Assembly (NCBI RefSeq): GCF_000218875.1
Contig: NC_015709.1
Coordinates: 186,001 to 250,000 of the forward strand
Source: Zymomonas mobilis subsp. pomaceae ATCC 29192
GTDB taxonomy: Bacteria; Pseudomonadota; Alphaproteobacteria; Sphingomonadales; Sphingomonadaceae
DNA length: 64,000 nt
Direction of reading: 5' to 3'
The position numbers and the translations under genes were made by a program. Positions 50,394-60,938 of this stretch are shown piece after piece; positions within the stretch are counted from its first letter, which is position 1; each line of letters opens with the position of its first letter. The notes under the pieces were generated by a model. That model saw nothing but the letters and a program-made list of their open reading frames with translations, made no database searches and was not told where the DNA came from.

Positions 50394-51431
50394 TTAACGC
50401 AAATGAGGCCTTTCTTCATGGGCTATTTCAGCAAGCGCTAACAGAGCAGCAGAATAATAATCATCTTGTTCGGTTATTTTCGAGGTAATCGGTTTATTCA
50501 GCATCAAATGAACAATAGCCATACCGCCTGTTGAAAGCGGATAAGGCGCAATCGCCTGCGTATTAAGATCAATCCATGCCGGTATTGGTTGGTTATGGGT
50601 GAGATAACTATTCCAATAGACAGCAAAAGGCACTGCTAACGCGTCTTCTCCACCCCAAATTAAGTAAAGCGGGATACGGATGGCATCAAAACCAAAATAG
50701 GGCTGTTTATCAGCGGCAGGCGCTAAACTGCCATCATTTTTAAAATCAACCCAGTCTGTCGGTAATTGAGGTAATCCAAAACGAGCACGGGATAGCAATT
50801 TTTTGCCACTTTCAATAACCGTACGCCACATACCGTTATCTACCTGATCGAACGCTTTTAAGGCTGGCCAAATATAATAAGAAAAATTCAACGTCACATG
50901 ATCTGTGCCGACAAAACCCTGTAATCCGGGTAAAAGAATAGTTTCGCCCCCACCCGAAAGAACTAATTTTTTACCAATAGCCTGCCTGATAGCGGCGGAT
51001 GCCGCACCATACCCCTTACCCGGCCAGCGGGATTCTGCCCGTAACAGGGCCCATGCAATCAGAATATCACCGTCAGTAGCATTGTTAAGATCAGAGATCG
51101 GATTTTGCTGTGATCCATCATAGCGCCATGCAAACAGTGCCATATCTGAACGCATTAAATGCGTTTTTGTCCATTGCCATAGAGCATCGAAGTTAGCGCG
51201 ATCATGGGCCGCTTCAGCTTGTAGCAGGCCATATCCCTGCCCTTCACTATGACTAATACCACCGTTACCGCTATCGACAATACGGCCTTCTTTTAAGAAC
51301 CGATTGCAAAATAACTTCCAATTACTTTGATCTGTTGCATGAGCCTTACTACAAGCTGTTATCAACGGAATAGTCATTAAGCTGGCAAGTATAAAACGGC
51401 GGTTATATATCATAACTGAAGATTGTTTCAC
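50394..51431 (-). CDS. bcsZ: Cellulose operon endoglucanase BcsZ (GH8)
   Basis: 345 residues. The N-terminal segment (FILASLMTIPLITACSKA) is a signal peptide with a possible lipobox. The glycoside hydrolase family 8 domain shows RIVDSGNGGISHSEGQGYGLLQAEAAHD, with the catalytic-acid glutamate in SEGQGYG, and WRYDG. BcsZ trims or edits nascent cellulose and is required for correct export in many cellulose producers. It lies 74 bases after bcsC and is probably co-transcribed. An ATG at 51413 is an alternative start. Confidence 0.92.
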   Translation of the reverse strand: MKQSSVMIYNRRFILASLMTIPLITACSKAHATDQSNWKLFCNRFLKEGRIVDSGNGGISHSEGQGYGLLQAEAAHDRANFDALWQWTKTHLMRSDMALFAWRYDGSQQNPISDLNNATDGDILIAWALLRAESRWPGKGYGAASAAIRQAIGKKLVLSGGGETILLPGLQGFVGTDHVTLNFSYYIWPALKAFDQVDNGMWRTVIESGKKLLSRARFGLPQLPTDWVDFKNDGSLAPAADKQPYFGFDAIRIPLYLIWGGEDALAVPFAVYWNSYLTHNQPIPAWIDLNTQAIAPYPLSTGGMAIVHLMLNKPITSKITEQDDYYSAALLALAEIAHEERPHLR

Positions 51432-51505: not shown

Positions 51506-54500
51506 TTAGTGATTACCGTAATTCTCTGCATCCAGTGCATAATGGAGCGAAAGCAATTCTCGATATTCGCTATAAGGACCGAAGGTTGTTGCTCTGATTT
51601 CTCCCCCCAGTACCGCAGATCGACTTAAACGATAGCTAACCGAAAGACGACCTTCATACCCCGCACCGCTATGATGTTGACCCGAAAAACGATTAGCAAG
51701 CGCATTGTTAGCAAGATGAAACGCATTCATTTGGTTTTGTAAATCATGTTCATTGCCAAATATATAATTACTTCTTTCATAGAAGTTTTGATAACCTGGC
51801 GCCACCTCAGCATTAAGCTTCCAACGATCCAGCGTTCCCGTATAGCGAAGCGGGAAGGCAACACTGATGAAATGATTGGGGCTGAAATACCCCCCTTGAC
51901 TGAAGGTAAAGAAATATTGGTTGTGGAGATAATGTTGATAATTAACATTTACCCCGATACTGAAATTGGCTGCTTGGCTATGTAATAAGGAATAATAACC
52001 GCCGACATTGGCTTCAACTGCGTGGTTGTTCTGAACTCGTGTGCCTCGATAAATACGGTAATTACCTTGTGCATAGAGTCCGCTACCATCGACATCATAA
52101 GATAAACCGGCGCCGCCGCCCGTTTTCATAACTTGTCCCCAATAAAGTCCTGTAACCGGATCGACGGTACCAGCATAGGCCACTAAACTATCCATAACAG
52201 GCCGTCTTTCCATGAAAAGATGGCCCGTTAAATGGTCGGTAATGGACGGCGACCAACCGATGCCGCCTTGAATATTGGTCTTTTTAAATCCAAGCGGGGT
52301 AGTACCAATATCTAAACTGAGATTACCGCGTTTAATACCTGCATCAAGCGCAACACCTGAGGCTGACTGGTTTTTGACGGATCGAATAAGGGCGGTGCCA
52401 CCATGGGCAACACTAGACGTTGCTACCAGCGGATTAGCCCCAAATACAGCAGCACCATATATATCCGGCTGCCCTGCCGTCACATAAAGCGGGGTTGCCG
52501 AGAAAAAGCCGCGGATTTTGCTGCCAAGATCGGTTGTTACCTTTGCATGAAAACCATATTCATTAAGGCGACTTAATCCGACCTGTCCAGAATGTTCTCT
52601 AAATTCCGGTGTGCCTTCTAAAACCGTGCCCGTATTTAAAGAAAGATGATCAATACCGTCATTAATATCCCGCATTAAAGGATCATTGCTACCCCCATGA
52701 AAGCGGGCTGCTGCGGGATAATTGATAGGATCGGCAACGGCTATACTGGTGTAAGACGGCGCTTCCAGCATAGTCCCTTGGCCAAAAGCACTCCCCGGCG
52801 CAAAGACATTCCAACTATCATATTTTTTCTGTTGTTTTTGATCTTCCTTAATTTTCATCTGCGCTTCATCATCATCTTCAAAATCACGTGAAGATTGATT
52901 GAAAGGCTGGCCAAACATCCGGTTACCAGACATCCCATTGTTGAGGCCCCGCCCGGATTGGCTTGGGAAAGGTAGCGCTTGATCCTGCATTGCAAAATCA
53001 TTGGCCGTTGTCGGTTTTGACTGCGTTACGGGTAATGCGTTGGTAGTCCCAGTGGAATTATTACGTAAAGATGGACGAGGAGCACTTCTTGTCTGAGACT
53101 TATAGGGTGCTGATCTTACAGGGATTTCATCGTTATTTTCTGAATCAGCAAAAAGTGGCTTTGCTTTAAAACCAGAGGACGCAACGTTAACAGATGCACC
53201 AGAGCGCCCGTTATTAGGCATATAGCTAGCATGATCGAAAGATTGTGAGTGATTGGAAGCTGTCGAACGAAAACTATTTGTAAAGCGGCGGCCACCAAAA
53301 TCATCATCGTCATCATCGCGATTATAGGCGTAACTATCCTCTTCCCCAAAGCGATCTTCATCGGAAGAGGCCATTTCAATCTGGCTTTGCTTTTGTAATT
53401 TACGCCAATCATTTTCATTGAGAGCAAAGGGATTATAATGATCTTCTATCGGCATCTGCGTCGCATCATCAGCGGCACCTGTAGGTAGATCCGCCGATAA
53501 TCCCCGTCTAATCATATGTTGATAGACAGCATGGGCCCGTTTTAAATCCTTTAAGGCTTTTTCATCGTTATCTTTTGTTTTTTCAAGCCGTGCCGCTGCC
53601 AGATAAACATAAGGATTACCCGGGGCAATTTTTTTTAGCTGTCTAAGGGCTCGTTCAGCGCGCTCGTCATTGCCTTCTTTTTGAGAAATTGTCAGGCTGT
53701 TCAGAAGCGCCGAGGCATCTTGGGGGTGATTTCTAAGCATATAATGATAAAGTGACTGAGCCTTATCATTAAGCCCTGTATCTTGATAAATTCTGGCGAG
53801 AACAGGTAATATATCGCTGCTGCCGCCGGATTCATCCCAAGCTTGGTGTAAAACGTCAAAGGCGGGCATGTAGAGTTTTTTTTGCCGCATCATATCAGCG
53901 CGCGCAATAGCCAATGTCCGATTAAGCATACGATACCCATTCTGGTCATGCTTAGACATTTCAGGCGTAATCTGACTGACAAAGCTGTTGGCTGTATTAT
54001 AATTTCCAGTTCGGATTAAAACCGACAAGCTTGCTTGATAATCGTTTGCTGATCCCAAAGGTAAGGAAAGGCTGTGTTCAGCCAAAAAAGCAGCATCTTC
54101 AACATCGTTTAACTGTAAAAGCGCATCGGCAATTGTACCAAGTTGCGCAATGCTACGGTTAGGATCATTGGCCAGTGAGCGCAATAAACCAATGGCATCT
54201 CCCCGCCGTCCATAGAGACTCATGCGTTTGGCTTGCGCTAAAGCGACATTCAAATCCGCATTTTCGGCAATAGTATTGATTAAAGCTGTTCGTTGTTCTT
54301 CAGGTATCCGTTCAACCAACGCAATGACGTGTCGATTATCGCCTACTTCTTGCCAGAAGAGACTGGCCGCATAAATGGCTTCTTCAGAAGACGCCTGATC
54401 TTCTAAAGGGCGAATAAGGCTGACAGCCTCAGGGCGATGGCCCCGTTTTAATAAAAGTCGGGCATAATCCAGCCGTAGCCAAGGATTGGCAATATCATTT

Positions 54501-55474
54501 GCGATAGCCATCCGGAAATATTGCTCGGCATGGACATAATCCCCCTGTGACAAGGCCTTTCTAGCCTTGATGCCGTTTTCCTGACTTTTTAGTCGGGCAA
54601 CAGCTACCGCATCAGCCGAGGAACCTAATTTATCATAAATGGCGGTTGCCTTATCAAATTGTCCCTGACGGGCGTAAATATCAGCCAAGAGAGAATCAGA
54701 CACATTCTGGTCACCCCCTTGCTGTCCTTGAAGCTGTTCAAGGATTGACTGGGCTTTGTCTAATTGATTTGCACGACTAGCGACTTGTGCCTCTTCAAAT
54801 CGGCCATAAAAACGGGCAGAGGATAAAGCAGAGGCCCACCGCCATCCTTCTTTATCTGATGAAGCTTCCTCTAAAAGACGGATGGCTTCCGAATAATTAT
54901 GCTGTTTTAGACGAATAATCCCGAGACCGCCTAATGCGTCTTTATCATGAGGATAAAGGGCTAAAGCACGGCGAAAGCGTTGTTCGGCCAGATCCAACTG
55001 ATTATTCTTAAAAGCATTAAAACCTTCTAACCGAATTCTACCCGCGCGCGCTGAAGGCGTTAATCCAGTAGGAAACGATCGACCGCCCTTACCCGTTACA
55101 ATAACATTTTTAGGCGCATTCGACGCCGTATTGGAAGGACTTTCAGAATTTTCAATAGGGGCTGCGACAAAGGTAGATTGTTGGATAGCTTCCTTTGCCA
55201 TACGGTTATTAGGATCTATTTCTAATAACCGCTGCCAGGCATTAGCGGCTAAATCGGGACGACCTCTATTTTTTCAGAAGATAGCTTGATTACGCAAAAG
55301 CTGAATAGCACCCCCACTTCCAACAGCTTTACCCGAAGAAGGCGCGTTACTATCCGTAGAAATTGATTTTTTATTGCCTGTTGTCGGGCTGGCGACTGCA
55401 TTGATCGTCAACGAACCCAAAACCATCGCACCTGCTAATGAAGAGGCTAATGTAATTCCTGTTATCCGTTTCAT
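51506..55474 (-). pseudogene. bcsC: Cellulose synthase subunit BcsC, interrupted by an in-frame TGA
   Basis: The frame runs from ATG 55474 (overlapping the bcsAB stop as ATGA) to 51506, 1322 codons, with a single internal TGA at codon 67 (55276-55274). The first 66 codons give a signal peptide (ITLASSLAGAMVLGSLTINAVA) and the start of the first repeat (LLRNQAIF). After the TGA the same frame reads KNRGRPDLAANAWQRLLEID, the rest of a TPR. Trp would fit the stop position, so TGG to TGA is the simplest event. TPRs continue to about residue 620, a disordered Ser/Asn/Asp-rich linker follows, and a BcsC C-terminal outer-membrane barrel fills about 930-1322. A product starting at ATG 55201 (1231 residues) would lack a signal peptide and a ribosome binding site. 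Confidence 0.85.
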
Positions 55475-58400
55475 GCTTCAGACTCATCATTATTCTCTGG
55501 TGCGTTCTCTTCGGTGGCATGCTCAAGACGGCGTTGTTGCTGAATTCTAAGCAAGGTGCCGATGGGTACAGCCAACAAAAGGGCGATGAATAATGTTATC
55601 ACAATCATTACTAACGGATGGTTACTAGCCCAGTAACCCATCCACAGCCACCAAGGCACAGAACCTCGCCAATAAAGAGGCCCAACTTGGAAACTGCGAA
55701 TACCGTTAATAGTATTAAGGGCGAGATCGCCTTTGATCTGGCCATCGTTTTGTTTCTTATCAAAAGATAACACGAAATCGGGAAGCTTTGTCTGATCAAG
55801 GGCTAGCAACGCTACAGCATCATGACGGCTATCAAAGGGTGACCGCCAAGCCATTAAACCTTGAAATTGGGAAGAAGAGATAGTCGCGGCGACATCTTGA
55901 TCAGGATAAGACGGGACCTCAGGCGAAGTCATGTGGAAAAATCGGCTAAAGAAACTGACAAAAGGTCTTTCTTTTAACGTCAAATGTTGCCCGTCCCAAC
56001 GAACCGGCGCATTTTCCAATAAATTATTATTTTCAGAAAGCGCAGGGCCGCCGATTATCAAAACATCCTTACCCTTCAAGCGATCTGGATTAATTCCTTC
56101 CTGAACTGAGAGTCTGGTAACGGCGGCGCCGGTTGTGTTGCCAAAGCGTGCCATAATGCCCAGATAAGCCTGAATAGCGCCCATTGTCGGATGGTCTTCC
56201 ATCAAGACGACACTGTCACCTAAATCAGGAACGCGGGTAAAGGGATAACCTGCCCCTGCAAATAAGGCTAAGCTAGGTAAACGGGCTAAATGATGGGCAT
56301 TCATCAGGTTGATGGTGCTTATAGGATCAATCGAAGAGCGCACATTATTGGGCAATACCGCCTGACAACGCCCTTTATCGGCTAGCTGTAAGTCATAGAA
56401 GAAACTAAGATAGTTATTAGGTGCCATCATGTATCCGGGAATGGCCCGTTTCCCTTGGTTTCGGATGCCAACGGCACCATCACGCCCCAGTAAGCGATCA
56501 ATCCATGTTTTTTGGCCGATAGGTAACGTAGAGACATATTGCGAATTAAGCGATATATCCAATCGTGAACGCTTCCTATCCAGCCAACTTCCATAAGGAT
56601 AACGATAACTGACATTCATTCTTGGGCCTGACCATGGCCAAAAGAATAAATCGGGGGCTGCTTTGAAATTGACGTCTAACGGCCCCGGCATAATGCTGTT
56701 ACCGATTAAATCTTGTGGTGACTGAACCAATTCTGCTAGTTTGATAGCTCGGTCAGTTCTTATCCATCGCGGCGCTTCATATTCTTTATAACTAGGGATT
56801 TTGATGTCATCGACGACTACACGTGCCCCTTCAAGCGCTGCACTTCTTGAAGCAAGAACCGCCGCCGCCTGTTTTAATTCTTCTCCATTCCGGCCCATAA
56901 TGACCAGAATCAAGCTAGAAGGATCAGAAGGATTTTTAACAATCTCAATAGTCGGCCCACTGATATGATCATCACCAAGACCAGCAATCGGATTTTTGCC
57001 CGTTGTAAATAGAATCGCATTTCCCGTCGGAATGCTACCTGTCATCGGGACAAAAGAAGCGCCTCGAAAACCGCGAGAACTCCCGATCCATGAAGCCACA
57101 TAACCTGCAGATTCAAGCATGTCTTCATCAGGCATGGAACTAAAAACAAAAGGTAACGAAAGTCTTCCTGTATCAAACCGGTCAAAGAAGGGCGCTGGTA
57201 ACCTTTCGAGATTAGCCTCGATAGGCGTTTTAACCATAGCCAGATCAAGAAAAGAACGTTTATTGGAAATATTCATCCAAAGCGAACTATGGACAGGATC
57301 TTCGCACTCTCGAGTATAGTGACCAATAAAACGAAGATTAATGCGATTTTCACCGGGTAAGAAAAGGGCTGGTTCGACGGGTATGGTAATATCCAGTCCA
57401 TTCGCATTTTCTCGCAAAAGCGGAATAGAGCGAACAACTTCGTTATTGACCAAAACAACCAAATGGCTGAGATCGCTTAACAAGGATGGTGAGTAACTTA
57501 AGCTTAGTTTTAAATTGGCACGGGCGACCGTCTCATCACTTCTAAGACCAAAGGGAATACCCATTTCCCCTAAAACACCCACCAAATGAATAGTCTGACC
57601 TATCCCCATATTTTCAAAGGAGATATGGCCTTGCTGTGCGGTAGAAGGCACGGCGATTGTAACTTCATCTGATGATAGGGTGGTTTTTGATGAGGAAACC
57701 GTTGTTTTGGCGGATGCCTGATGATTATAAAAACCGGCTACAGTTAAAAATATCAGGCCGGCCGCCGTTGCTTTTACAGTAGCCACTTTTTTAATAACCT
57801 CTTGCTTTATGGCGGCTTTTTTATCCACGCGTTTTTTTGGACGGTAGTGCAGCAAGCCAAAGATAATTTTTAGAATATGGCGCATAGAGGCTATGGTTGA
57901 GATTGGTTTTTCATCGGCTCCATAATTTAACCAAGCGTCAGCCTGCCCCATAAGAGCAGCCACAAGTTTTTTTTGAACATCAAGGGACAGTACTTCGAAT
58001 TGTAATCGAACCAGAGAGCCGCTCTGATTGATTAATTTTACAGGTAAAGCGAAATCTCGGCCATCTAACGTCATCGTAACATCGGTTATTGGATGCTCTT
58101 TTAAGTCATATCCTTTCGGCAACGAAATCGCGAGTCCGCCTAAAGAGATGTTATCTGTAATACTATCCAGCACGCGCCCATTCTCAAAATAAAGAGAGAT
58201 CGGAATATGGAAAGGAAAACGGACCGTGTTCCGAATTTGTCGGCTTTCATGCGCAACAGCGACCGAGGCCAAGAGAATAATTAAATTAAAACCCGCCCAT
58301 GCCATATTTAAGAATAAAACAGAGGCTTGGATATGAAATATATTCGGAAAGAAAAGCTTTATTGAACCAACAATAAGACCCAGAAAAAGAAAGGCTGCTG

Positions 58401-59943
58401 TAATAAGATGAGGTCGAACAGACTGAACATCAAAATAATCATCTTCCATCCGTTCTCCCTTATCGGTTACATTGAATTTTCCTTTATCTGGATTAAAAAA
58501 GGTCACCAAGGTGGGTTTAATAAGATGGAAGGCTAAAAGGGTTTCATTGATTTCACCCCAAAAAGGTTGACGGCGGCCACTACTAAGCCGTTCATGTGCC
58601 CAAAGAGATAAAAATAGATGCGGTATGGCATACGCAAAAACCATCACGGCAGAAGCATGGATAATGCTGGAATTGAACAGCATGAAGGCCAAGGGAGAAA
58701 TCAAAAATATGACCCGTGGCAAAGCAAATTGATAATGTAACAGCGCATTCATATAACAAAGACGCTGCGCTATCGTTAAACCACCACCAAATAGAGGATT
58801 ATCAATTCTTAAAATTTGTGTCATGCCGCGCGCCCAACGCGCCCGTTGTTTGATATGGGCTAATAAAGTATCCGTAGCGAGACCAGCCGAAAGACGGATA
58901 TTAATATAGGCTGTATCCCAACCCCGACGTTGAAGTCGAAGCGCTGTATGGGCATCTTCGGTTACCGTTTCACCTGAAAATCCGTTATTTTCGTTTAAGG
59001 CCTCGCGTCGCAGAATGGCACAGGAACCACAAAAAAATGTGGCATCCCAAAGATCATTACCGCATTGGACAGAACCATAAAATAATTCGTTATCGCCCGG
59101 TAATTCATCGCCACCGGGCACATTTCTTTGAACAGGATCAGGGGAATAAAAAAAGTGAGGTGTCTGGACCAAAGCAAGGTTAGGCTCTTTTTGAAGCCAA
59201 CCTATGGTCATTTGCAAGAAGGCCCGTGTCGGAACATGATCACAATCAAAAATACAAACAAAATCGCCATCAGTCCGCTTTAAAGCAGCATTAAGATTAC
59301 CGGCTTTAGCGTTGTGGTTATCGCTACGCGTTAAATAATGGCATCCGACATCCTGAGCAAAAATTCTGAATTCTTCACGATTACCGTCATCAAGCAAATA
59401 TACTTTAAAACGATCAGGCGGATAATCCATCCCCATCGCAGCAAAAACGGTATTACGGACGATTTCCATACTTTCATTATACGTTGGAATTAAAACATCA
59501 ACGGTGGGTAAATCCTTGTCAGGCCCTTTAATTTTTACGACAGGCCGCTTTAAAGGCCACAATATCTGAAAAAGGCCAAGAACTAAAATAATCCATGCAT
59601 AAAGCTCTGCCATAAAAAGGACGCCACCAAAGATAGCATCCATAATATGCTCAAAACGGAGCGTCTGAGTTATGCGCCAGAAAATATAACGAGAGGAGGT
59701 TAAGGTTGAGAAGAGACAGATAACAACCGAGGCATAATGGGAAGGGCTACGATCTATTAAGAGGGTAGTGCCCATTAAAGACAAACCATAAACCCACTGG
59801 TAATCTAGGGGTAGCGGCACCGCGATGACAATAATAGCGGCTAGTATAATCAAGATAATCAAAGGCCATTGTAATGAAGAGGCCCAAGCCTGTTCTGTCA
59901 GTCGTTTCATTTCAGACTTATTAAGGCGGAATTTATGAAACAT
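55471..59943 (-). CDS. bcsAB: Fused cellulose synthase BcsA-BcsB
   Basis: About 1490 residues. The BcsA half has multiple membrane helices and a family 2 glycosyltransferase core: DDG 185-187, DCD 233-235, TED 328-330 and QRARW 366-370, the D,D,D,QxxRW set for UDP-glucose polymerisation. A PilZ domain follows, with RNTVR at 571-575 and NISLGG at 598-603, the cyclic di-GMP-binding residues. From about residue 750, the periplasmic BcsB half begins after a membrane segment (TVKATAAGLIFLTVAGF), and a C-terminal anchor helix ends the protein. The ATG at 59943 has AAGG nine bases upstream; a TTG at 59982 would be 13 codons longer. The fused form is like Komagataeibacter AcsAB. Confidence 0.94.
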   Translation of the reverse strand: MFHKFRLNKSEMKRLTEQAWASSLQWPLIILIILAAIIVIAVPLPLDYQWVYGLSLMGTTLLIDRSPSHYASVVICLFSTLTSSRYIFWRITQTLRFEHIMDAIFGGVLFMAELYAWIILVLGLFQILWPLKRPVVKIKGPDKDLPTVDVLIPTYNESMEIVRNTVFAAMGMDYPPDRFKVYLLDDGNREEFRIFAQDVGCHYLTRSDNHNAKAGNLNAALKRTDGDFVCIFDCDHVPTRAFLQMTIGWLQKEPNLALVQTPHFFYSPDPVQRNVPGGDELPGDNELFYGSVQCGNDLWDATFFCGSCAILRREALNENNGFSGETVTEDAHTALRLQRRGWDTAYINIRLSAGLATDTLLAHIKQRARWARGMTQILRIDNPLFGGGLTIAQRLCYMNALLHYQFALPRVIFLISPLAFMLFNSSIIHASAVMVFAYAIPHLFLSLWAHERLSSGRRQPFWGEINETLLAFHLIKPTLVTFFNPDKGKFNVTDKGERMEDDYFDVQSVRPHLITAAFLFLGLIVGSIKLFFPNIFHIQASVLFLNMAWAGFNLIILLASVAVAHESRQIRNTVRFPFHIPISLYFENGRVLDSITDNISLGGLAISLPKGYDLKEHPITDVTMTLDGRDFALPVKLINQSGSLVRLQFEVLSLDVQKKLVAALMGQADAWLNYGADEKPISTIASMRHILKIIFGLLHYRPKKRVDKKAAIKQEVIKKVATVKATAAGLIFLTVAGFYNHQASAKTTVSSSKTTLSSDEVTIAVPSTAQQGHISFENMGIGQTIHLVGVLGEMGIPFGLRSDETVARANLKLSLSYSPSLLSDLSHLVVLVNNEVVRSIPLLRENANGLDITIPVEPALFLPGENRINLRFIGHYTRECEDPVHSSLWMNISNKRSFLDLAMVKTPIEANLERLPAPFFDRFDTGRLSLPFVFSSMPDEDMLESAGYVASWIGSSRGFRGASFVPMTGSIPTGNAILFTTGKNPIAGLGDDHISGPTIEIVKNPSDPSSLILVIMGRNGEELKQAAAVLASRSAALEGARVVVDDIKIPSYKEYEAPRWIRTDRAIKLAELVQSPQDLIGNSIMPGPLDVNFKAAPDLFFWPWSGPRMNVSYRYPYGSWLDRKRSRLDISLNSQYVSTLPIGQKTWIDRLLGRDGAVGIRNQGKRAIPGYMMAPNNYLSFFYDLQLADKGRCQAVLPNNVRSSIDPISTINLMNAHHLARLPSLALFAGAGYPFTRVPDLGDSVVLMEDHPTMGAIQAYLGIMARFGNTTGAAVTRLSVQEGINPDRLKGKDVLIIGGPALSENNNLLENAPVRWDGQHLTLKERPFVSFFSRFFHMTSPEVPSYPDQDVAATISSSQFQGLMAWRSPFDSRHDAVALLALDQTKLPDFVLSFDKKQNDGQIKGDLALNTINGIRSFQVGPLYWRGSVPWWLWMGYWASNHPLVMIVITLFIALLLAVPIGTLLRIQQQRRLEHATEENAPENNDESEA

Positions 59944-60610
59944 GGGCTGAGGCCTTAGGCTTAACCATTGTCTGCCTTCCAAGCATCAGAAGAATCTGTT
60001 GGGCGATACTGTCAAAATCATTTAAGGCGGCACTAGCAGGAGCGTAAATATTCAAACGTTCAAGTTTACCTAGCGCCTCATTAAGCGCTTCATCTCGGCG
60101 GATAGTACCGATTAAATTATCCTCGGCCATATCTTGAACAAACTGTGCCGCGGCTCTTTGAAAATCATAACGGGGTTCGACAGCATTTAAAATATAACAA
60201 TGGGTTTTATCAAAAGCTTCGGGTAATAAAGCCATACATCCTGCATTGGGAGCCAGAATAGTTATTACTAAGGCTTGATTGTTCTCATTAAGCACCTCTA
60301 ATAACTCTAGATTTTCAGTACCTAAATCAACCAAGATAAAACCATTATCTTCGTCTATTTCTTTAGAAAAACTTAATAATTCTTCAATGGAAGAGGCTGA
60401 TAAAAGCGGGATATCTATATCAGCTATTGTGTCGACTTTTGCGGAATCAGAAGTATTTTCTTCTGTTCCCAAGTGAAAAGTTAAAGATTGTTGGCCTGTT
60501 AAGTCAGCAAGCGCTACTTGCTGTTCAAAGCGGGATAAAGCCATAGCCAGATTGGCTACGACTGTAGTGACCCCTACCCCTCCCTTGAATGAATGAAACA
60601 ATACCAACAT
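59933..60610 (-). CDS. bcsQ: BcsQ-like ParA/MinD-family ATPase
   Basis: A 225-residue P-loop protein. The deviant Walker A is FKGGVGVTTVVANLAMAL (K9, with V14 where many MinD proteins have K), Walker A' is VALADLTGQQSL, and ILVDLGTEN is Walker B-like. BcsQ/YhjQ proteins help localise cellulose synthase at the pole. It precedes and overlaps bcsAB by 11 bases. The C-terminus ends SAHVS. The start at 60610 (MLVLFHSFKGGVG) is normal for the family. The bcsQ assignment is by context; a general MinD-like role is possible. Confidence 0.82.
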   Translation of the reverse strand: MLVLFHSFKGGVGVTTVVANLAMALSRFEQQVALADLTGQQSLTFHLGTEENTSDSAKVDTIADIDIPLLSASSIEELLSFSKEIDEDNGFILVDLGTENLELLEVLNENNQALVITILAPNAGCMALLPEAFDKTHCYILNAVEPRYDFQRAAAQFVQDMAEDNLIGTIRRDEALNEALGKLERLNIYAPASAALNDFDSIAQQILLMLGRQTMVKPKASAHVS

Positions 60611-60728: not shown

Positions 60729-60938
60729 TTATGGATTTATAATCATTTCGGATTTTTCTAATGACTTGTTATGAGTAATCTTCCAAGAAATATATTGCGC
60801 AGCCTTTTCTAATAATGGCCAGTGATGCCATTCTGCCGCATTTCTGTTATCGTAAACACGATAAGGTAAATTATCTTGGTCAATATCTTTCAAGAGATTA
60901 TCTACATCTTGAGGCAGAGCTTTTTTAGCGTGTGACAT
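60729..60938 (-). CDS. Small BcsR-like protein heading the bcs operon
   Basis: A 69-residue polar protein with an excellent ribosome binding site (AGGAG, about six bases before the ATG at 60938). It reads DVDNLLKDIDQDNLPYRVYDN and then AAEWHHWPLLEKAAQYISWK. The pattern of an N-terminal acidic helix, a YR/YxDI-like middle and WPLL(A/E)xxA near residues 40-47 recalls BcsR (YhjR), a 62-residue activator of E. coli cellulose synthesis whose C-terminus also contains WPLLAEFAQ. It is located directly upstream of the bcsQ-like gene (118 bp gap), as bcsR is. This is a motif-level similarity by recall, not an alignment; alternatively it is an unrelated small protein. Confidence 0.6.
   Translation of the reverse strand: MSHAKKALPQDVDNLLKDIDQDNLPYRVYDNRNAAEWHHWPLLEKAAQYISWKITHNKSLEKSEMIINP

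Follow-up and report, generated by a model that had tools for sequence, protein, structure and literature searches.

Organization of the bcs operon

We analysed a stretch of 64,000 nucleotides from Zymomonas mobilis subsp. pomaceae ATCC 29192 (contig NC_015709.1, positions 186,001 to 250,000), referred to below as the window. Its minus strand carries a bcs operon with a BcsQ-like gene, bcsA and bcsB in a single frame, bcsC and bcsZ. The features are listed in Table 1. For comparison we used three other Zymomonas genomes (G001, G002 and G003) together with a larger set of genomes from the same family.

Table 1. Features of the bcs operon, in positions of the window
Feature	Position	Strand	Remarks
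69-aa open frame upstream of bcsQ	60729..60938	-	conserved in two relatives
BcsQ-like ATPase	59933..60610	-	intact frame
bcsA-bcsB fused open frame	55471..59943	-	1490 aa from ATG 59943; stop overlaps the bcsC ATG (ATGA)
GTG aligned with the relatives' bcsB ATG start	57784..57786	-	AAGAGG upstream; probable retained internal bcsB start (predicted use)
bcsC frame	51506..55474	-	1323 codons including the final stop; signal-peptide-like N-terminus, TPR region, BCSC_C outer-membrane barrel domain
Premature TGA, codon 67 of bcsC	55274..55276	-	TGG in three other Zymomonas genomes and 17 other family loci
Open frame remaining after the stop	51506..55201	-	1231 aa from the first ATG/GTG/TTG (ATG)
bcsZ, family 8 glycosyl hydrolase	50394..51431	-	intact frame

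In the window bcsA and bcsB form one frame, whereas they are separate and overlapping in G001, G002 and G003 (bcsA of G003 is cut by a contig end). A net 5-nt deletion, by comparison with these three genomes, places the two genes in one frame; the junction is near position 57786, and the gap falls shortly before the bcsA stop. The ATGA overlap between bcsA and bcsB of the relatives reads GTGG in the window. BcsB may still start separately, from this GTG with its Shine-Dalgarno-like AAGAGG. Both halves of the fusion keep near-full-length profile matches; the synthase model TIGR03030 scores above its cut-off, and the best BcsB equivalog stays under its own (1469.3 versus 1658 bits). A fused AcsAB occurs in Komagataeibacter. 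The first-pass annotation of this DNA had described the rest of the operon as functional-looking. This holds insofar as the neighbouring bcs frames are stop-free, but what had been named bcsAB is a fused frame unlike the genes of the relatives, a difference that had gone unremarked. An earlier study gives bcsA as 'not annotated' in pomaceae and notes that the lengths of the Bcs proteins vary in pomaceae and francensis (PMC8088579). The fusion probably explains the missing annotation.

The 69-aa frame shares 66–68% identity with its counterparts in G001 and G002 and has no match in Pfam or NCBIfam. Judged by its position, it is probably ZMO1080 of strain ZM4. Its WPLLEKAA stretch may resemble E. 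coli BcsR. Conservation across the five bcs products compared is lowest in the BcsQ-like protein, with 53% identity to G001 in the BLAST match, compared with 73–80% for BcsA, BcsB, BcsC and BcsZ.

BcsC provides both the channel for cellulose in the outer membrane and its scaffold in the periplasm (PMC8088579). The bcsC frame of the window lies in an operon with bcsA, bcsB and bcsZ, and its product is 73–76% identical to BcsC of the three other Zymomonas genomes. The signal peptide was called by eye. The N-terminal TPR repeats are matched by TPR_19 (E = 1.8e-29) and by other TPR families, and the relatives align across the premature stop. The portion downstream of the stop contains the BCSC_C barrel (Pfam PF05420, E = 4.4e-99). 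The window protein remains under the cut-off of the NCBIfam BcsC equivalog (204.6 versus 858 bits). Two structures entitled 'Cellulose synthase operon protein C', 9b8a and 6tzk, match the C-terminal barrel by sequence (E = 4.5e-30 and 7.4e-24); we take both to be E. coli-type BcsC. The resemblance lies in this homologous barrel, whereas the N-terminal TPR region differs in having no BcsC match in the PDB: the first 330 residues of a relative's BcsC matched general TPR and PPR proteins only.

A premature TGA codon in bcsC

The first-pass annotation had reported a single in-frame TGA in bcsC and had read it as a point substitution rather than a frameshift. Both statements are confirmed. The minus-strand codon read from 55276 to 55274 is TGA, and the frame is open to either side of it: starting at the ATG at 55474, stops occur at codons 67 and 1323 only, so that 66 residues are read before the TGA and the frame is open afterwards until the stop ending at 51506. 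A search of the window genome with the BcsC of a relative gave a match that covers the 1326-residue query and contains one TGA. The codon context is TTC TGA AAA AAT AGA in the window and TTC TGG AAA AAT AGA in all three other Zymomonas genomes. The lesion is thus one G-to-A change that leaves the length unaltered and is the sole difference from the relatives in this 15-nt stretch. We regard the TGA as a well-defined nonsense allele.

Restart of translation downstream of the stop was rated a weak candidate. The first remaining start (ATG, 55201) gives a protein that lacks the signal peptide and that, if translated, would stay unexported.

Conservation of the tryptophan

A BcsC match is present in 29 of 397 family genomes, and a stop inside a match occurs in the window genome only; where a genome has two matches, the count is blind to the interval separating them, for example to frameshifts there. 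Because just one of the 29 genomes has such a stop, we do not regard chance as the cause of the TGA. In the other family genomes both BcsC matches report equal frame lengths, with the exception of G048.

We re-aligned the 29 loci, of which nine gave no N-terminal alignment and 20 were aligned, the window among them. The query, from G002, also has tryptophan and was left uncounted. The residue at the position of codon 67 is tryptophan in 19 of the 19 other alignable N-termini and is coded TGG in each, in agreement with the earlier expectation of a TPR tryptophan at this place. Placed by hand against the TPR consensus, with the proline of IDPNN as the reference point for the numbering, the residue is presumably the aromatic position 11 in helix A of the first TPR repeat.

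In G048 (locus L112, contig C18) the TPR part (1033806–1035611) and the barrel part (1031587–1032762) lie in different frames of 816 and 794 aa, respectively. The bcsC of this genome is probably frameshifted, or else its assembly contains an error. Besides the window genome, the family thus includes one or more genomes with an apparently broken bcsC, reached by a different route.

Use of TGA elsewhere in the genome

We compared 400 kb of the chromosome, approximately a fifth, with 400 kb of G001. The comparison involved 337 non-overlapping G001 ORFs and yielded 283 orthologue-like pairs (ORFs of at least 100 aa, at least 70% coverage, at least 50% identity; stops within the first 25 or last 15 residues ignored). 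The unfiltered list holds many more ORFs with internal stops, which we took to be mostly overlaps of longer ORFs. Of 1318 aligned tryptophan positions, the window genome has TGG at 1252 and TGA at one, namely the bcsC codon. The reverse comparison (330 ORFs, 282 pairs, 1302 tryptophan positions) yielded zero TGA. No long gene other than bcsC has an internal stop among the 283 pairs. Four further ORFs of the window-genome sample contain internal stops, all at non-tryptophan residues. In B353 the start had been mis-called, and an intact 328-aa frame runs from a later start; B158 is antisense to a 141-aa ribosomal-protein-like frame; for B371 (128 aa) and B408 (102 aa) the window genome lacks a corresponding frame of at least 100 aa, so that each is a broken gene or no gene at all. 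The reverse comparison gave one short ORF with an internal stop in G001 (A87, 109 aa). Two frame changes were flagged, one being the bcsA-bcsB fusion and the other a repeated match.

With one TGA in 1318 tryptophan positions of the 400-kb sample, we reject a genome-wide reassignment of TGA to tryptophan. Selenocysteine is rejected as well; the two matches to the tRNA-Sec model that exceed its cut-off are the genes of tRNA-Ser(tga) and tRNA-Ser(cga). The 42 tRNA genes found, an incomplete survey with no tRNA-Ile among them, include one tRNA-Trp(CCA) and none with a UCA anticodon. The tRNA-Trp is identical at 78 of 78 bases in all four Zymomonas genomes, by which a suppressor change in this tRNA is ruled out. 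Its anticodon stem has 5 bp and not the 4 bp described for tRNA-Trp that reads UGA (PMC13092985). Release factor RF2 is intact in the window genome. Stop-codon recoding would be marked by a dedicated tRNA or by repeated use of TGA, and the window genome displays neither. The earlier suggestion that the stop may be suppressed finds no specific support in these results.

Age of the stop codon

No second nonsense change is found in the other 1321 codons ahead of the final stop of bcsC. For a neutrally evolving bcsC, the probability of this drops to 0.05 at 0.018–0.022 substitutions per site, indels ignored. The ratio of pN between window and G001 to pN between G001 and G002 is approximately 2.2 for bcsC, compared with 2.1 for bcsA, 2.1 for bcsB, 2.2 for bcsQ and 3.7 for bcsZ; for other genes it is 3.1 (mltB), 2.8 (trmD), 2.0 (rimM) and 1.3 (rplS). 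The protein change of bcsC is not accelerated by this measure, which a brief recent acceleration would escape. Between the window and the relatives bcsC has reached saturation at its synonymous sites (pS 0.74–0.80), which makes dN/dS unusable on this branch.

As there is no second lesion and the protein changes no faster than its neighbours, we reject an old pseudogene, and a null allele, if this is what the stop has created, must be young, at less than roughly 2% neutral divergence. Either the stop is recent or some BcsC is still produced. The locus has the appearance of a recent nonsense pseudogene, with one disabling change in a gene that is intact in all three other Zymomonas genomes. Selection on the remaining bcsC is also expected of a gene that is leaky and still used.

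Proposed effect on cellulose export

Based on these results we propose that bcsC carries a recent single-base nonsense mutation that probably abolishes cellulose export, nearly or wholly, in the sequenced strain. Ribosomes would halt after 66 residues, a stretch that takes in little more than the signal peptide and a linker and ends early in the first TPR helix. Beyond rare misreading, neither the TPR scaffold nor the outer-membrane channel would be produced. The BcsA/BcsB synthase is intact as a sequence and may keep making glucan. Because the 66-residue product contains neither channel nor scaffold, passage of cellulose through the outer membrane should fail. In addition, approximately 3.8 kb of untranslated message should lower bcsZ through polarity. 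A recent loss of export had been suggested in the first-pass annotation, and with a conserved tryptophan hit in an otherwise intact frame beside stop-free bcs neighbours we also consider it probable; the accompanying idea of a suppressed or readily reverting stop is not borne out.

The other bcs genes are open and the four GGDEF domains of the window genome all lie in stop-free frames. The pathway is otherwise kept, which counts against a null allele. The same four frames make c-di-GMP control, studied for cellulose in strain ZM401 (PMC12900916), a better candidate than codon 67 for reversible regulation. In G001 one GGDEF match (locus L008, G001:C7:430767-431237) lies in a frame of 334 aa, compared with 1012–1030 aa in the window genome (G000), G002 and G003. 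With counterparts paired by score, this diguanylate cyclase of G001 is possibly broken.

UGA is the stop codon most readily misread by tRNA-Trp. Occasional reading of codon 67 by this near-cognate tRNA would put back exactly the conserved residue and could supply some working BcsC, in a small quantity that is perhaps enough, and the intact, unaccelerated frame beyond the stop is consistent with such leakage. An identical frame, however, is predicted by a recent null mutation, and the tRNA-Trp is the same as in relatives that have TGG, with an ordinary 5-bp anticodon stem. Taken with the intact RF2 and with bcsC as the only case of TGA among the sampled tryptophan positions, this leaves a leaky stop rather unlikely. 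We think it quite improbable that the UGA is a tolerated leaky codon through which each cell obtains a small number of BcsC channels by basal misreading; export would then be low and nonzero, and selection would guard the other 1321 codons.

An error of sequencing or assembly, with the strain actually carrying an intact codon, is also unlikely. The position is flanked by a pair of G and a run of A (TGGAAAAAT in the relatives), a context in which a shift in calling the homopolymer might look like a substitution. In favour of an error, the analysis drew on one sequence of this genome, the relatives differ from it at exactly one base in the 15-nt stretch, and bcsC stands alone among the long genes of the 283 pairs in having an internal stop. 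An error would nevertheless have to consist of a wrong base or of two miscalls that compensate each other, in a genome that is 99.96% complete (3 contigs, 2,061,413 bases), and the small number of internal stops in the two-way comparison makes the sequence quality look high.

We give hardly any credence to the 'simple switch' of the first-pass annotation, according to which mutation at codon 67 turns export reversibly on and off: Zymomonas strains do differ in flocculation driven by cellulose, and other bcs lesions exist, one of them (bcsA of ZM4) within a run of T (PMC8088579), but the change at codon 67 is a base substitution and not a change in repeat length, as slippage in the adjacent A run would cause, bcsC occurs at one place only in its genome, and reversion would run at the ordinary rate of point mutation. 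Phase-variable contingency would call for a length-variable repeat or invertible DNA, neither of which was found at the site; direct or inverted repeats of at least 12 bases are absent within 54900–55650, single-base runs lying outside the coverage of the tool.

Relation to known bcs lesions and flocculation

The recent nonsense mutation that we favour amounts to ordinary gene loss, new in its detail and of a kind already known. In E. coli K-12, a laboratory lineage, bcsQ has an early single-base nonsense change (TTG to TAG), the rest of the bcs operon being complete; W3110 produced cellulose once this codon had been repaired, and a polar effect was suggested for that case too (PMC5944007). 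That case differs in affecting bcsQ and not the exporter gene bcsC, in the TAG stop and in being proven by repair, whereas ours is read from sequence. E. coli ST95 offers a second parallel, with independent null mutations, nonsense included, in cellulose genes and convergent loss; those are pathogenic lineages for which a selective account is given (PMC10881479).

Within Zymomonas, lesions of the same operon are described for ZM4 (a T insertion in bcsA), B-12526 (a bcsB pseudogene) and PROIMI A1 (a bcsA/bcsB deletion) (PMC8088579). They concern other genes than in the window, and the frameshift of ZM4 and the deletion of PROIMI A1 differ from a bcsC substitution. The flocculation of these three strains is reported to be at least weak or condition-dependent (PMC8088579). 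Titles and abstract openings in the literature on Zymomonas bcsC, cellulose, flocculation, pomaceae and ZMO1082 make no mention of the bcsC stop; the supplementary BcsC alignment of PMC8088579 may show it.

Flocs are lost in aerobic growth when bcs genes carry Tn5 insertions or when the whole operon is deleted (PMC8088579). The natural flocculators that this study identified are CP1, B-1960 and francensis; pomaceae was grown in the study and is not named among them. Its absence agrees weakly with a null bcsC, three of the 15 phenotyped strains being so named. The link to flocculation drawn in the first-pass annotation is only indirect.

If confirmed, the bcsC stop would give a simple reason for this lineage not forming cellulose flocs, and the exporter would join the bcs genes known to be altered in Zymomonas strains. 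Flocculation is relevant to Zymomonas fermentations and to genetic work with these bacteria. Cross-strain comparisons of flocculation that include this strain should account for both the bcsC stop and the bcsA-bcsB fusion.
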